Below, in pieces: positions 57,280 to 63,786 of a stretch of DNA of 64,000 nucleotides (positions are counted from its first letter, which is position 1; each line of letters starts with the position of its first letter). The translations under genes and the position numbers were made by a program. The stretch is from Pseudopedobacter saltans DSM 12145 (GTDB lineage: Bacteria > Bacteroidota > Bacteroidia > Sphingobacteriales > Sphingobacteriaceae). A model generated the notes under the pieces. That model did no database searches, had not been told where the DNA came from, and worked only from the letters and a program-made list of their open reading frames with translations. The stretch is from the NCBI RefSeq assembly GCF_000190735.1, contig NC_015177.1:4526001-4590000 (forward strand). The letters are read 5' to 3'.

Positions 57280-57351
57280 GAAGATAAACTCTAACTAAGA
57301 GGAAAGATAAAGAAGGTTTTTATTTTGATTAATTACATAAATAATATAAAG

Positions 57352-58764
57352 ATGAAGAGACTGGTTTTTAAAGCTTTTTTGTTGTGTATAAGCTGTGTGA
57401 CTGTTGTGGCGCAAGCTCAGCAAAAAAAGCCTAATGTAATTGTTATTGTTAGTGACGATGCAGGTTATGCAGATTTTGGTTGTTATGGTGGAAAGGAAAT
57501 ACCGACTCCAAATATTGACGCTTTAGCAAAGAATGGTACGTTGTTTACAGATGCTTATGTGTCGGCATCGGTATGTGCGCCTTCCAGAGCGGGCATTTTA
57601 ACCGGAATGTACCAGCAACGTTTTGGTTTCGAGCATAATATTTCTGAATTGCCTGTAAAACCTTACACCTTGAATGATGTGGGGATGGATCCAAAAATTA
57701 AAACTATTGGAGACCAAATGAAACATAATGGTTACCGTACCATCGCAATTGGTAAATGGCATCAGGGAGATTTACCTCAGTATTTTCCTTTAAAAAGAGG
57801 TTTTGATGAGTTTTACGGTTTTGTAGGCGGGCATAGAAGCTTTTTCGGTTATCCGGGTGGTAAAGCGCCATCTCATGAATTGGCTTTGTTCGATAATGAC
57901 AAGATTGTACCAGAAAACACGATTGGTTACCTAACTGATATGTTTACAGATAAAGCGATCTCTTTTGTTAAAGAAAATAAGTCTAAACCATTTTTTATGT
58001 ATTTAGCTTATAATGCGGTTCATGTTCCAATGAATGCGAAGAAAGAGCTAATGGATAGATTTCCTAATATTACAGATCCGGGAAGAAAAGCTTATGCGGC
58101 CATGATGGTTTCTTTAGATGATGGAGTGGGCGAGTTGGTGAAGACTTTAAAGGAACAAAATCTTTATGATAATACTTTAATTGTCTTTGTAAATGACAAT
58201 GGTGCGGCAACAGGAAATTATGCAGATAATGGTAAACTGAGAGGATTGAAAGGCTCTAAATGGGAAGGCGGAATCAGAGTGGCTTATATTATGCAATATC
58301 CTGATCAAATTCCGGCCGGAAAAGTTTATAGCAAAATGGTGTCTGGTTTAGATATTATGCCAACAGCTGTAGGTGCAGGTAAAGGAGAATTAATTTCAGG
58401 TCAGGTTACAGACGGTAAAAACCTTATTCCGTACTTAAACAATACTATTAAAAAAGCTCCGCATGATGATTTATTCTGGAGAAGAGGAATAGCTGCCGCC
58501 GTTAGAGAAGGTGATAAATGGAAATTGATAAGAAGTGGCGATACGAATCCTGTTTTATTGTTCAACCTGAAGAAAGATATTTCAGAGACTAAGAATCTTG
58601 CGCAATCGCATCCGGCTAAGACCAAAAAGCTATTAGCTAAGCTGGCAGCATGGGAAAAAACGATAGATAATCCGCATTGGTTAAGCCCTTACGGTGATAA
58701 AAATCAGATATTGAAACACCGCATGGAGGTTATTGGCAGAGAAATGGAATTGAAGTATCCGTAA
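57352..58764 (+). CDS. S1-family sulfatase
   Basis: This 470-residue exported sulfatase starts at the ATG at 57352, because the signal peptide begins MKRLVFKAFL. An upstream start at 57325 would add nine polar residues. The maturation motif CAPSR has Cys75 for formylglycine formation. Metal-binding segments SDDAGYADFG and VNDNGAATG are intact. It differs clearly from the sulfatase at 52708, so the two probably remove sulfate from different positions. It lies 72 bp after the ABC lyase, and a repeat element follows its stop. Confidence 0.92.
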   Translation: MKRLVFKAFLLCISCVTVVAQAQQKKPNVIVIVSDDAGYADFGCYGGKEIPTPNIDALAKNGTLFTDAYVSASVCAPSRAGILTGMYQQRFGFEHNISELPVKPYTLNDVGMDPKIKTIGDQMKHNGYRTIAIGKWHQGDLPQYFPLKRGFDEFYGFVGGHRSFFGYPGGKAPSHELALFDNDKIVPENTIGYLTDMFTDKAISFVKENKSKPFFMYLAYNAVHVPMNAKKELMDRFPNITDPGRKAYAAMMVSLDDGVGELVKTLKEQNLYDNTLIVFVNDNGAATGNYADNGKLRGLKGSKWEGGIRVAYIMQYPDQIPAGKVYSKMVSGLDIMPTAVGAGKGELISGQVTDGKNLIPYLNNTIKKAPHDDLFWRRGIAAAVREGDKWKLIRSGDTNPVLLFNLKKDISETKNLAQSHPAKTKKLLAKLAAWEKTIDNPHWLSPYGDKNQILKHRMEVIGREMELKYP

Positions 58765-58794
58765 AGACAGAATTGCTAAGAGTTAATTGTTAAG

Positions 58795-58938
58795 CCCTCA
58801 TCCGCCCTTTGGGCACTTCTCCCAGAAGGAGAATGGTGATTTTAGGAACGGTACAAGCTTTAAGTTTTACAATAAGCATTAATCGAAGTGATTTCCCTTC
58901 TCCCTGAGGGAGAAGGTGGCTGAAAGCCGGATGAGGGG
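58795..58938. repeat. REP/BIME-like module (inverted pair) between sulfatase and chondroitinase B
   Basis: The left unit is at 58795-58833 and the right unit, inverted, at 58895-58938. Both follow the plan CCCTCATCCG, a small GC hairpin, then CCTTCTCCC with its mirror GGGAGAAGG. The spacer of about 60 bp has a short match (AGGAACGGTA) to the spacers of the modules at 62829 and 63553. It lies between genes of the chondroitin operon and could fold strongly in the message. Confidence 0.8.
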
Positions 58939-58979
58939 AAACAAATAGTAATAAAAATTGGATTTGTTGATATCAAACC

Positions 58980-60518
58980 ATGAATAAAAGGACACTTGTT
59001 TTAGGTTTTGTTTTACTATGCTTTGCCCTGCCAACATGGGCAAAGCATATTCTTGTTGCTTCTGTAAAAGAAGTTTATAGTAAGGTTGATCAGCTTAAAG
59101 CCGGCGATACATTGCTGCTAAAAGACGGTATCTATAAAGATATCCAATTGGTTGTTAAACGCTCTGGAAGTAAAGAAAAACCAATTGTTATTGCTGCGCA
59201 AAACGGAGGAAAGGTTTTCTTTACCGGTGATGCCAAGGTAGAATTGAGAGGTGAATATCTTGTCCTTAAGGATATCTATTTTAAAGACGGAAATCGCAAT
59301 GTCAATCAATGGAAATCGCATGGGCCGGGTTTGGTGGCTATTTACGGTAGTTATAACCGCGTAACCGGATGTGTTTTTAATGCTTTTGACGAAGCCAACT
59401 CTGCTTATATTACCACTTCTTTAACAGAGGAAGGAAAAGTACCAAAACATTGCCGTATAGACCATTGTGTCTTTACCGATAAAATCACTTTCGATCAGGT
59501 AATTAACTTAAATAACAGACCCAGAGCCGATAAGGAAAGCAAGGTTTTGGGCGAGGCTATGTATCATCGTATAGACCATTGCTTTTTCTCTAATCCGCCA
59601 AAGCCAGGAAATGCAGGTGGCGGTATTCGTGTTGGTTATTACCGAAATGATATCGGCCGGTGCCTGATAGATTCTAACCTTTTTGTCAGACAAGATTCGG
59701 AAGCTGAAATCGTGACCAGCAAATCGCAGGAGAATGTTTATTATGGTAATACCATTTTAAATTGTCAGGGAACATTAAACTTCAGACATGGCGATAAGCA
59801 AGTAGCTCTAAATAACTTTTTTATCAGTACAGATAATAAATATGGCTACGGCGGAATGTTTGTTTGGGGAAGTCAGCATATCATAGCCAATAACTATTTC
59901 AATCTGAAAAAGACTATCAAGGCCAGAGGGAATGCCGCTTTGTATCTTAATCCAGGACCGGAAGGTTCTGAACATGCTTTGGCTTTCAACTCGTTAATCG
60001 TCAATAATTTTTTTGATGATAATAATGGTTACGATATCAATTTTGAACCGTTATTAGAAAGAAGAAAGGAGTTTGCTAAAGAGGTGAATGCCGAGTTTAA
60101 ACTACCTTATAACATCACGATTGAAGGAAATCTTTTTGCAAGCAAGCAGGGCGATAAACATATTCCATTCTTAGGAAATCTGGATAAGAATAACCTTCAG
60201 AACAATTATAGTTTCGGACAAATGGCTAATGATAAATTGTTTACCAATGTAAAGCCAACGACCGACGGTTCTTATAACCCGCAAAGTTATAAAGGATATC
60301 AGTTAGCTAACGTTAAGGATATTAAGAATATTGAAGGGATTGATCTGGATATCCAAAATCTAATCAATAAAGGAATAGAAGGAAACCCACTAACATGGAA
60401 TGATGTACGTCCGTCATGGTTAGTGGAAATACCAGGATCTTACGCCAAAGAAGGTACACTGGATCAGGAAACTAAAATACGTTTTCAAAGGGTTTTGGCA
60501 AGAGACAGAAATAACTAA
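58980..60518 (+). CDS. cslB: PL6 chondroitinase B (dermatan sulfate lyase)
   Basis: This 512-residue secreted beta-helix protein is very similar, by motif and length, to P. heparinus chondroitinase B (506 residues, from memory). The segments [33 protein letters not shown] and FDQVINLNN are close matches. Catalytic residues shift by two: Lys248 in VTSKSQ and Arg269 in LNFRHG correspond to Lys250 and Arg271; Glu243 and Asn211 also match. It cleaves dermatan sulfate at galactosamine-iduronate bonds by elimination. It starts 41 bp after the repeat module and ends 12 bp before the AC lyase gene. Confidence 0.94.
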
Positions 60519-60530
60519 AATTAAACGAAT

Positions 60531-62642
60531 ATGATTAAGCGAATTCTTCTGTTAAGCTTTATGCTGATGGGCTTTTCTCCATCAGTTTTATGGGCGCAAA
60601 AGCAGACATTTGAACTGATTATGGGGCGCGTAGCCGAAGATAATGCGGTTACTAAACCCAAACAGGTAGATGCTGCGGCAATTAAATTATTTGATAAGTG
60701 GCAGGAAGATGGCAGTTGGTCTGATATCAATTACAAAGCTATAGATATTACCAAATGGCAACCGTCTACGCATTTAGACAGATTAAGAACTATTGTTAAT
60801 GCTTATACGGATAAAGATGGTAGCTTTTACGGTAACCCGCAGATATTTAATAAAATACAAAATGCTTTGGCGTTTTGGTACGATCAGGATCCTAAAAGTG
60901 ACAACTGGTGGCATAACGAGATAGATGTTCCGCAAAAACTGGGCGAACTATTAATTTCTTTAAGGTACGGAAGTCAGAAACTATCAAAAGAATTAGAAGC
61001 CAATTTAATAGAGCGCATGAAGCGTGGCGTTGCCGAGAAAAAAACCGGAGCCAACAAAACGGATATTGCTTTACATTATTTCTATAGAGCTTTACTTACC
61101 CAGGATAAAGCTTTATTGAAACTGGCAGTAGACCAGCTTTTAGAACCGGTTGCGCTGGTAGACGGGGCAGAGGGTTTGCAATATGATTACTCTTATATGC
61201 AACACGGGCCACAGCTATACATCTCTGGTTACGGAGCGGTTTATCTGACAGGTATTGTAAAAATAGGGAAGTACGTAGCGAATACACCTTATGCCATGTC
61301 TAAAGAGCAAGTCGCTTTATTCTCTAAATTCTATAGAGACGTGTATTTGAAGACTTTTAGGTCAAAATATATCGATTTTAACGTAGAGGGAAGAGGGATT
61401 AGCAGGAAAGACATTTTAAAGAAAACTTCAGAAAAATACCGAATCAATAATGCTAAACTAATTGATCCTAAAAATGCAGACGATTGGGAAAATAACCGTT
61501 TGAGGGTAGACAGCGCAGAGGCACCAAGTTTTAAAGTAACTCCTTACCACCAGCATTTCTGGAAAGCGGATTATACATTGCATATTCGTCCGAATTATTC
61601 TTTCAACGTTAGAATTGCCAGTAACAGAACCAATAGAAGCGAATCTGGTAATAAGGAAAATTTGTATGGTCGTTACCTTTCTGATGGGGCTACAAACATA
61701 CAGGTTAATGGACCAGAATATTTTAATATTATGCCTATCTGGGAATGGGATAAAATTCCGGGAACGACCAGCGTAGATAATAAAGAAGATTTATTGTTAG
61801 ATAAGTTTTGGGGGCATTTAGGAGATAATGCATTTGCCGGAGGGGTGTCAGACCAGGTTTATGGTGCGACAGCTTATCAGTTGGATTATGACAATGTATT
61901 GGCTAAAAAAGCGTGGTTCTTCTTTGATGATGAGATTGTTTGCTTAGGTGCAGATATCCATTCTAAAGACGAAAGAAATGTGACTACTACGCTTAACCAG
62001 ACCTGGTTAAACGGAAAAGTGTCATCTTCTGTAGCTGATATTAAAACGGAAAGTCCAGAGCAAATGAATATTGCAGCAAATGGATGGTTGTTCCATAACG
62101 GAGTAGCTTATGTATTCCCTAAGCCAAGCCAGGTTAATGTTAGCACAGCGACGCAAACGGGTTCCTGGTACAAGATTAATAATTCGTTTGGTAAAGCAGA
62201 AGTTTCCGGCTCGGTATTTAAAGCATGGATAGACCATGGTAAACAACCCGAAGGTGCAGATTATGCTTATATCGTACTGCCGGGATTAAAAGACGCAGCT
62301 GCTTTAAAGAAATACAATTCGCCTATAGAAATTGTTAGAAACGATAAAGATGTACAGGCAGTTTTCCATAAGAAACTGAATTTGACACAAGTGGTATTCT
62401 ATACAGCAGGTACAGCTACAGTAAGTGGTTTAGAAATTACGGTAGACAAGCCATCGGTATTGATGGTGAAATCTCTAAAAGGAGCCGAAAAAGAAGTTCT
62501 GGTAGCAGATCCTTTGCAAAAAGAAACAGCATTAAAAGTAAGTCTTAAAAATGCCAAAAATGGTGTTCAAAAAGATTTGTCAATTACTTTACCGACTGGG
62601 CCATATAAAGGTTCTACCAAATCAGAAAAAGTTAGTTTATAA
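60531..62642 (+). CDS. cslA: PL8 chondroitinase AC
   Basis: This 703-residue secreted lyase is nearly the length of P. heparinus chondroitinase AC (700). All six known active-site residues occur at exactly the same numbers: Asn175 in KTGANKTD, His225 in YMQHGP, Tyr234 in SGYGA, Arg288 and Arg292 in VEGRGISRKD, and Glu371 in SESGNKENL. It cleaves chondroitin 4- and 6-sulfates and hyaluronan by elimination. The signal peptide ends SVLWAQ. It is the last gene of the locus, 12 bp after chondroitinase B, and a terminator follows. Confidence 0.96.
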   Translation: MIKRILLLSFMLMGFSPSVLWAQKQTFELIMGRVAEDNAVTKPKQVDAAAIKLFDKWQEDGSWSDINYKAIDITKWQPSTHLDRLRTIVNAYTDKDGSFYGNPQIFNKIQNALAFWYDQDPKSDNWWHNEIDVPQKLGELLISLRYGSQKLSKELEANLIERMKRGVAEKKTGANKTDIALHYFYRALLTQDKALLKLAVDQLLEPVALVDGAEGLQYDYSYMQHGPQLYISGYGAVYLTGIVKIGKYVANTPYAMSKEQVALFSKFYRDVYLKTFRSKYIDFNVEGRGISRKDILKKTSEKYRINNAKLIDPKNADDWENNRLRVDSAEAPSFKVTPYHQHFWKADYTLHIRPNYSFNVRIASNRTNRSESGNKENLYGRYLSDGATNIQVNGPEYFNIMPIWEWDKIPGTTSVDNKEDLLLDKFWGHLGDNAFAGGVSDQVYGATAYQLDYDNVLAKKAWFFFDDEIVCLGADIHSKDERNVTTTLNQTWLNGKVSSSVADIKTESPEQMNIAANGWLFHNGVAYVFPKPSQVNVSTATQTGSWYKINNSFGKAEVSGSVFKAWIDHGKQPEGADYAYIVLPGLKDAAALKKYNSPIEIVRNDKDVQAVFHKKLNLTQVVFYTAGTATVSGLEITVDKPSVLMVKSLKGAEKEVLVADPLQKETALKVSLKNAKNGVQKDLSITLPTGPYKGSTKSEKVSL

Positions 62643-62710: not shown

Positions 62711-62770
62711 GTGGGTTGTGTAGCTTCTTATAAGCCTTCGGGCAGCTACTCGGAGCAGGTAGAAGGGCAT

Positions 62771-62819
62771 AATAGCAATAGCAATGCAAATTTTGCTTTT
62801 TTGTGGGTCTATTGCTATT
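62771..62819. repeat. 11 bp perfect inverted repeat
   Basis: AATAGCAATAG at 62771-62781 and CTATTGCTATT at 62809-62819, with a GCAAA/TTTTGC core. The preceding bases (GGAGCAGGTAGAAGG) recur at 63623. It lies just before the repeat module. Confidence 0.65.
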
Positions 62820-62828
62820 TCGTTTATA

Positions 62829-63143
62829 CCCTCATCCGCCCTTTGGGCACCTTCTCCCAGAGGTAGAAGGAGATAATAGGAAGGTGTGTGGTGCATTCAT
62901 TGTTAGTAATTCTATTTACGGTGGTAAAGGAACGGTATATCCGTTTTAGTAATGCTATTCATCGTTCGTTTGCCCTTCCCCCAGAGGTAGAAGGAGATAA
63001 TAGGAAGGTGTGTGGTGCCTTTTGTTGTTAGTAATTCTATTTACGGTGGAAAAGGAACGGTTTATCCGTTTTTAGTAATACCATTCATAGTTCCTTTATC
63101 CTTCTCCCTTGAGGGAGAAGGTGGCTGAAAGCCGGATGAGGAG
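62829..63143. repeat. REP/BIME-like module upstream of the DUF559 gene, with an internal duplication
   Basis: The left unit is at 62829-62870 and the right unit, inverted, at 63100-63143, the latter built on CCTTCTCCC-TTGA-GGGAGAAGG then GCCGGATGAGG. Between them a stretch of about 124 bp is present twice in tandem (from 62858 and from 62982), each starting CAGAGGTAGAAGG. The duplicated spacer (AGTAATTCTATTTACGGTG, then ATCCGTTTT) recurs in the module at 63553. No gene is seen in 62711-63183; minus-strand frames here only translate the repeats. Confidence 0.85.
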
Positions 63144-63183
63144 GAACAAAATACCACGCTAAAAATCATTATCTTGTAATGTT

Positions 63184-63537
63184 ATGGATAGTAAAAGTTT
63201 TAGACGATTACAACGACAAGAACCTACACCTGCAGAAATGAGAATGTGGTCTATTCTTAGGGATCGTAGGTTTTCTGGTTATAAGTTTAGGCGACAACAT
63301 AGCATAGGTAAGTATACAGTAGACTTTTACTGTCATAGACTAAAGTTGGTGGTAGAAGTTGACGGCAAAGTACATGACGAGCTGGGGCAATGTTTTTATG
63401 ATTATGAAAGAGACCAATGGTTGTCTTCTCAGGGAATCATTGTTGTAAGGTATGAGAATGAAGCCTTACTTAAATGGTGTGAGAATGTAACAGATGATTT
63501 ATTGGCCCTTATAAAAGATATCGAATCTAAAGAGTAG
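63184..63537 (+). CDS. DUF559 protein, Vsr-like putative endonuclease
   Basis: This 117-residue single-domain protein has the DUF559 pattern: TPAEMRMWSILRDRRFSGYK, FRRQHSIGKYTVDFYC, LVVEVDGKVHDE and GIIVVRYENE. It is related to very-short-patch-repair and PD-(D/E)xK nucleases; the Asp of VDFYC and the Glu and Asp of VEVDG are candidate metal ligands. No partner gene is adjacent. It is bracketed by two copies of the same repeat module, the right unit of one ending 40 bp upstream and the left unit of the next starting 15 bp downstream. No activity has been shown for this exact protein, and the link to the repeats is inferred. Confidence 0.88.
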   Translation: MDSKSFRRLQRQEPTPAEMRMWSILRDRRFSGYKFRRQHSIGKYTVDFYCHRLKLVVEVDGKVHDELGQCFYDYERDQWLSSQGIIVVRYENEALLKWCENVTDDLLALIKDIESKE

Positions 63538-63552
63538 TAATGATTGGGGTTT

Positions 63553-63786
63553 CCCTCATCCGCCATTTGGGCACCTTCTCCTCCTTCCAAAGGAATCCCT
63601 TCGGGACAAAGGGACTCCTTTGGAGCAGGTAGAAGGACATACTAGGTAAAGGAGTGATGCCTTTGTTGTTAGTAATTCTATTTACGGTGTAAAAGGAACT
63701 GTATATCCGTTTTAGTAATGCTATATTCATAGTTCCTTTGTCCTTCTCCCTTGAGGGAGAAGGTGGCTGGAAGCCGGATGAGGGGG
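63553..63786. repeat. REP/BIME-like module downstream of the DUF559 gene, with a nested hairpin
   Basis: The left unit starts at 63553 and the right unit is at 63742-63786, in the same inverted arrangement as at 62829. The second hairpin of the left unit is interrupted by a foreign palindrome of about 45 bp (about 63581-63626) with arms TCCAAAGGA and TCCTTTGGA and an inner CCCTT/AAGGG. The spacer matches the 62829 module. The remaining 63787-64000 is AT-rich and shows nothing I can name. Confidence 0.85.

Follow-up and report, generated by a model that had tools for sequence, protein, structure and literature searches.

A DUF559 nuclease gene between BoxC-type repeat modules points to a possible class of nuclease-driven mobile elements in bacteria

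Does a small nuclease gene that lies between elaborate inverted repeats have anything to do with how those repeats spread? The question is raised by a locus near the end of a 64,000-nucleotide stretch of the Pseudopedobacter saltans DSM 12145 genome (the window). The original prediction proposed that the protein encoded there recognizes or cuts the hairpins around it and spreads them. The gene (63184..63537, plus strand; DUF559, PF04480, YcjD-type) encodes a 117-amino-acid predicted Vsr-like PD-(D/E)XK nuclease that keeps D47, E58, D60, and H64. It matches PF04480 with 108.9 bits (cut-off 20.6; E = 1.6e-31; profile positions 5-108 of 109) and is the sole PF04480 gene that we found in its 4.64-Mb genome. 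The left module (62829..63142) ends 41 bp before the start codon and the right module (63553..63784) begins 15 bp after the stop codon. A solo two-unit module without a gene (58795..58937) lies between a sulfatase ORF (stop at 58764) and a chondroitinase B ORF (start at 58980). This much is as predicted: a DUF559 gene between two inverted-repeat modules, with a third copy standing apart.

That each module is a pair of inverted units around a spacer held in outline, but both modules are more complex than that. The left module runs from a unit at 62829-62870 (plus strand) through a duplicated spacer (62896 and 63021), with a partial unit at 62974-62994 in the middle, to an inverted unit at 63100-63142. 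The right module begins with a unit at 63553 (plus strand), whose loop contains a nested extra hairpin (63574-63636), and continues through a spacer to an inverted unit at 63742-63784. The copies of the spacer repeat (62896..62947 on the plus strand, 63021-63072, and 63662-63713) are 92-94% like the reference copy. Upstream, a possible decayed piece of a unit (GGAGCAGGTAGAAGG..., 62752..62786, plus strand) is 80% like 63622-63656.

Each unit in the window has a CCCTCATCC head, then a small hairpin (GCCC/GGGC), and then CCTTCTCCC-loop-GGGAGAAGG. Read on the opposite strand, the tracts are CCTTCTCC, GGAGAAGG, and GGATGAGG. The first two form a hairpin, and the third mirrors the second with a T opposite one A, which is permitted in a purine-type intrastrand triplex. 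Since the unit's purine arm mirrors the complement of the pyrimidine head, one strand could fold as an intrastrand triplex. A strict scan for three such tracts matched the window only at 63100..63141 (where the tracts are those given above), 63742..63783, and 58896..58936 (in the solo module), all on the plus strand and all within modules; 20 block-shuffled windows averaged 0.05 matches. The left-facing units (with a GGTAGAAGG arm) fail this strict scan. The head pattern CCCTCATCCGNC, allowing at most one mismatch, matched six times in the window versus 0.31 expected, and none of 100 shuffles reached six.

The small inner hairpin shows compensatory changes. Across 15 of 17 unit contexts (10 distinct rows), nine cells were altered on both sides, as compared to 2.9 in shuffles (0 of 500 reached nine), and all cells remained paired; two of the four pairs change on both sides, and no shuffle of 500 reached the covariation score. 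Coarser measures were not above the shuffles (2 versus 1.7 two-sided pairs, and 3 versus 3.8 pair types).

The original prediction took DUF559 to be a Vsr-like nuclease family, and predicted-structure matches support a nuclease fold related to Vsr. For the predicted model of the window protein (pLDDT 89.3), the best Foldseek match was 3hrl (NGO0050, itself DUF559; 2.1e-8), followed by 3r3p (the catalytic domain of I-Bth0305I, which is akin to Vsr; 1.2e-4). Vsr itself appeared only at ranks 8 and 10 (1cw0, 0.019, and 1vsr, 0.036), below mitochondrial ribosome chains and PvuRts1I. (The chains that the fold resembles are from Toxoplasma and Tetrahymena: 9i05, 9g6k, and 6z1p.) The window protein, YcjD, and NGO0050 (3hrl) belong to the same family, PF04480. 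YcjD has been assigned to the PD-(D/E)XK superfamily, and its profile ties it to Vsr (PMC1189080); literature passages on YcjD or NGO0050 gave neither a function nor a link to repeats. D47, E58, G61, and H64 are invariant among 32 sequences and D60 is nearly so; a permissive motif is present at 137 of the 138 DUF559 loci described below.

The units resemble a known family of repeats. According to passages of Holder et al. (2015, PMC4666352), BoxC/PIT/TM repeats were recognized in E. coli in the 1990s and, by 2015, in over 260 genomes, their origin is not known, and the E. coli motif was reported to fold as a triplex in vitro. In the same passages the repeats are widespread, with no mobility activities found around them; neither "endonuclease" nor "DUF" appears as a word in the text. 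The window unit has the BoxC/PIT/TM design, with a T1-T2 hairpin and a T3 that mirrors the purine arm (G-GC, A-AT, T-AT), and its copies are likewise dispersed, some as inverted pairs; this is a match of design, as opposed to an alignment with the listed sequences. As far as those passages describe the published repeats, the two share the purine-motif hairpin with a third tract, a G/C-rich composition, occurrence singly or as inverted pairs, and presence in many bacteria. They differ in that the repeats described here have a gene partner, occur as in-frame inserts, and have filled and empty alleles. We found no link between DUF559 or YcjD and BoxC-type repeats among the matches listed for the open-licence literature, and no paper there that contains two or more of four unit strings is on bacteria, as judged by title. 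The repeats and the protein fold were each already known; their pairing and the in-frame cassettes appear to be new.

We assembled two sets of DUF559 loci. The Bacteroidota set comprises 60 standalone genes from 56 of the 109 PF04480-positive genomes in a 198-genome sample (58 were usable), and for the cross-phylum set, a protein-similarity search of many phyla gave at least 585 loci, of which we kept the best 80. The original prediction would lose ground if DUF559 genes elsewhere lacked such hairpins or if relatives lacking the gene had equally many repeats, and we found neither. The three-tract motif lies within 400 bp of 110 of the 138 DUF559 loci versus 16 of 466 control ORFs (other ORFs of 90-250 amino acids from the same regions), and near 44 of 1036 of all other ORFs. 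Its density is 1.54 per kb near DUF559 and 0.033 per kb beyond 1 kb. The two flanks share a 14-mer at 37 of 55 Bacteroidota loci versus 3 of 239 control ORFs; in the cross-phylum set, this is so for 22 of 39 standalone and 14 of 34 long-frame loci, as compared to 12 of 691 ORF flanks and 11 of 691 mid-ORF windows. The tract letters vary between genomes and the three-tract design is constant. The third tract fits its own hairpin on the 3' side for 42.6% of 578 hairpins (long hairpins may be counted more than once), versus 5.7% on the 5' side and 21.6% if loci are swapped. A mirror repeat fits better than a direct repeat by 251 to 69, with 258 ties.

Some features of these loci count against movement of the repeats by DUF559. 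The strict motif is absent nearby at 28 of the 138 loci. The nearest unit's head points toward the gene in 122 cases and away from it in 50, which is a mixed orientation. Also, near/far enrichment is alike for mirror (46.3-fold) and direct (45.5-fold) third tracts and does not separate them. Apart from these points, a relative (E = 1e-5) was found in 2 of 50,697 phage records and in 42 of 72,556 plasmid records, and some of these "plasmids" are chromosome-sized. In one genome (G146, contig 14, 442322-547942), 11 matches to the BoxC-type pattern fall within about 105 kb, over 115 kb from the contig's listed DUF559 place.

The number of repeats in a genome tracks the gene. With a gapped pattern, the window unit has 17 copies in its own genome and none in 120 other genomes of the family, including 12 congeners. 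Some of the 17 are in pairs, several are single and distant from the gene, and three stand in a row 508-529 bp apart. For a broader comparison, we counted a related unit pattern, CCTCACCCN{0,5}CCCTCTCC, in 121 family genomes, including copies that adjoin the gene, and scored DUF559 as present if PF04480 matched with E of 1e-10 or better (a cut-off set after the gap was visible). The related unit is present in 39 of 49 genomes with DUF559 versus 7 of 72 without it (Fisher p = 2e-15), with means of 7.7 and 0.44 copies per genome, respectively. A permutation within genera gave p = 0.004, and among the nine genera with both states, copies were higher with the gene in six, lower in none, and tied in three. 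There were exceptions: 10 of the 49 genomes with DUF559 lack the related unit, and five of the 72 without it have 3-8 copies (G212, 7; G295, 8; G259, 6; G290, 6; G216, 3). Sixteen family genomes had weak, partial-profile matches to PF04480 (best E above 1e-10) and were scored as lacking DUF559; if these are rescored as positive, the related unit is found in 40 of 65 versus 6 of 56 genomes. In family genomes such as G002, G295, and G237, there is a recurring frame of about 160-200 amino acids that matches PF04480 weakly and only over its C-terminal part; it probably represents a different family. In the 198-genome phylum sample, presence of CCCTCAYCCN{4,24}CCYTCTCC differed little (15 of 109 PF04480-positive versus 9 of 89 other genomes), which counts against a role of the gene; three or more copies were found in seven genomes with PF04480 and none without (p of about 0.014). 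The backward control of this pattern was present in four genomes of the sample.

In other bacteria, DUF559 can lie inside another gene. In 35 of the 80 cross-phylum loci, the domain is part of a frame of more than 260 amino acids, although some of these may be chance open frames. We scanned 10 long frames with Pfam, and in seven of them, domains of the same host protein lie on both sides (two MetH, LeuRS, MetRS, ValRS, an HrpA-like helicase, and HsdR). Of the other three, L200 has a different domain on each side, and in L201 and L204 only one side carries named domains. Within the window's family and phylum, DUF559 is in frame within leuS (two sites), metH, and mcm, again with host domains on both sides. 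Overall, the sites used by cassettes are in leuS (two), metH, metG, valS, mcm, an HrpA-like helicase gene, hsdM, and hsdR. In the LeuRS of L197, the insert falls between chain positions 384 and 387 of 3zgz (which we take to be E. coli LeuRS), and in the MetRS of L203, it falls between the anticodon-binding and C-terminal domains. The cassettes are bordered by units, whose translation gives peptides such as PSPSGRGAGGEG and PLPEGEG. The sources from Stagnimonas, Pseudoxanthomonas, Rudaea, and Cryomorpha are not metagenome bins, so misassembly is not the general cause of in-frame inserts. Rickettsia palindromic elements are similar in kind, being palindromic repeats in frame within protein genes; they are not known to have a nuclease gene. 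In five loci (L140, L143, L154, L155, L158), a DUF559 frame continues directly into hisF (AKRIIPCLDV...; Pfam confirmed this on L158), which looks as if a cassette had landed at the start of hisF.

Comparing relatives for empty sites, as the original prediction had suggested, turned up filled and empty alleles within one genus for both leuS and mcm. Of 13 genomes in the window's genus, six have the leuS cassette and seven, including the window's own genome, lack it. Four of the seven cassette-free loops hold other short inserts, which indicates that the loop tolerates insertion. Of 30 mcm loci from another genus of the family, 19 fitted our search pattern: 10 with a cassette, eight without, and one internally deleted (L303). 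Pfam confirmed methylmalonyl-CoA mutase in one filled and one empty locus. The mcm cassettes span 450-669 nt from the first to the last matched head, of which the nuclease domain takes about 310 nt, and by pattern they terminate in CCTCACC...GGTGAGG, with the gene inside a two-unit module as one bounded insert. (L307, L306, and L320 hold extra units, so the ends are less certain there.) Pfam scans found no second gene in the cassettes that we read. In the closest pair of mcm alleles, the filled one reads CACTATCAAAG, cassette, CTAAGTTGCC (L324) and the empty one reads CACTATCAAAGTGCTAAATTGCC (L302). No target duplication is seen in this one close pair, which counts against the nuclease as a mover.

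There are also modules without the gene. Another mcm loop has in-frame gene-less modules in L303, L309, L316, and L329; at mcm site 1, 13 of 30 loci matched, and none of these is a plain short allele. Gene-bearing cassettes and gene-less modules resemble autonomous and non-autonomous elements. The inserted DUF559 copies appear to be under constraint, with a median pN/pS of 0.22 for eight mcm copies and 0.25 for five leuS copies, as compared to 0.09 and 0.22 for the respective host segments, and these ratios are only a rough guide because dS was saturated in many pairs. One mcm copy (L317) lacks the active-site aspartate, which counts against a role in movement.

Other repeats occupy the same loops. 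A different repeat (GACGTCCGAGGTCGG..., peptide ERPTSEVGSQDSSDLRLRTSDL) is in frame in the leuS loop of L272 and L273 (with similar ones in L285 and L288), and in other species this loop is the DUF559 cassette site. A third repeat family (GAGACGCAA...TTGCGTCTC, peptide ETQSIASL) is in frame in mcm loop 1 of L310, L315, L318, and L319, the same loop that holds gene-less BoxC modules.

The recurring pairing of nuclease and repeat across bacteria, even within essential genes, suggests that the nuclease moves the repeat. We think it likely that BoxC elements owe their mobility to the DUF559 (YcjD-type) nuclease, in a system similar to REP/RAYT with an unrelated enzyme, and that the locus in the window is a single copy of a mobile cassette. 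The Vsr-like nuclease would recognize the folded unit and nick or cut at its head; the segment between two units, freed or copied, would then insert elsewhere via host break repair. Segments that include the gene would spread as autonomous cassettes, and two units with a short spacer would spread as gene-less, MITE-like derivatives. The units contain no stop codons when translated, and we propose that this allows inserts to persist in tolerant loops of essential proteins. That the protein cuts DNA and recognizes the folded unit, the route of insertion, movement, and which allele state is older are what we infer from these comparisons of sequences. PD-(D/E)XK enzymes hydrolyse DNA and require other factors for strand transfer, which counts against a mover of this type. 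Chances seem to us about even for the broader claim of a separate class of bacterial mobile elements, in which a single-domain nuclease with the Vsr fold (DUF559/YcjD) moves DNA that ends in triplex-type units, makes gene-less derivatives, inserts in frame in essential genes, and gave rise to the BoxC/PIT repeats across phyla, including those in E. coli.

The E. coli member of the family is ycjD; of 5426 E. coli genomes, 3365 contain a near match to it and about 2,060 do not. In the annotated E. coli rows that we examined, ycjD lies between sapF and fabI. The name Box C was first given near envM/fabI. In L294, a BoxC-type unit, identified by eye, lies between ycjD and fabI, and its second loop, also by eye, is the TTA of BoxC/PIT/TM type A as given in passages on that type. 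An 8-nt triplex scan found no match in E. coli and P. aeruginosa loci L333, L295, and L299, and it also missed the unit in L294. We had considered E. coli as a source of precise empty sites, and set it aside: L334 and L335, which lack ycjD, have an efflux operon beside fabI, and this indicates a regional replacement as opposed to an empty site. (One report, in part, takes the efflux operon to have been lost where ycjD stands; PMC12817139.) A control search with PF04480 was positive in 2 of 14 known genomes, E. coli not among them, though ycjD is common in E. coli.

Could the BoxC units instead be spread by another agent, with the DUF559 gene merely inserting there or using a safe site? Units in the five genomes without strong DUF559 (G212, G295, G259, G290, G216) favor this, as do the E. 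coli genomes without a near match to ycjD, two of which have other genes beside fabI. We nevertheless judge it unlikely, given the mean of 0.44 copies in 72 family genomes without DUF559 versus 7.7 with it, the absence of the window unit from 120 relatives, and the mcm gene that sits inside a two-unit module as a single bounded insert. It is less likely still, in our view, that DUF559 spreads by homing, as an endonuclease that inserts copies of itself at specific empty alleles, with the repeats only as its borders and not spread by it. The nearest solved fold of known role is that of the homing endonuclease I-Bth0305I (3r3p), whose gene is likewise present or absent at fixed sites, and several species have a cassette at the same leuS, mcm, and other sites. 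Unlike I-Bth0305I, DUF559 has many unrelated target sites (listed above) and dispersed repeats as flanks, and no intron or intein was seen by eye; furthermore, gene-less modules exist, and the number of units across the genome follows the gene.

The parallel with REP elements has a rival of its own, namely that a RAYT-type HUH transposase moves these repeats. As described in passages on REP, BIME, and REPIN elements with RAYT (TnpA-REP) genes, palindromes flank an enzyme gene, two inverted units spread, and solo units lie elsewhere (PMC8266576, PMC2817692, PMC3116915), and the window's genome has three Y1_Tnp genes. These genes are at 116597, 495673, and 657222, whereas the 17 units lie between 1357866 and 4589784. 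The nearest are thus about 160 kb apart if the chromosome is circular and 700 kb if it is not. The gene beside the repeats is PF04480, the only one in the genome, and encodes a PD-(D/E)XK-type enzyme, as opposed to a Y1 HUH protein, and these inserts occur within coding genes. REP elements have GTAG/CGTC at the foot of the hairpin, according to PMC3733652; here, by eye, the head is CCCTCATCC, a mirror-repeat third tract, and GTAG occurs only within some 3' arms. We disfavor RAYT as the mover on the grounds of distance and consider it very improbable. GC-rich intergenic hairpins are common, and ordinary transcription terminators or local palindromes might flank a small gene by chance. This is scarcely credible in view of the motif near 110 of 138 DUF559 loci versus 16 of 466 control ORFs from the same regions, the shared flank words (37 of 55 versus 3 of 239), and the in-frame inserts within genes.

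Overall, the data support the original prediction of a nuclease-driven counterpart to REP/RAYT, in which the protein itself would cut or move the repeats. If DUF559 moves BoxC/PIT repeats, the origin of the repeats and the role of the uncharacterised E. coli ycjD would be answered together. It would also mean that REP-like families can be driven by a hydrolytic nuclease with a Vsr-like fold as well as by HUH transposases, and that nuclease inserts reside in essential proteins, leucyl-tRNA synthetase among them.

Two further observations concern the window itself. A row of sulfatase, chondroitinase B, and polysaccharide lyase family 8 genes (57325-62642) precedes the flanked gene. The hairpin nested in the right module (63574-63636) holds TCCAAAGGA/TCCTTTGGA, which resembles CCGAAGGAGTCCTTTGGACAG adjoining the units at 3865.7-3866.8 kb (L009-L011).
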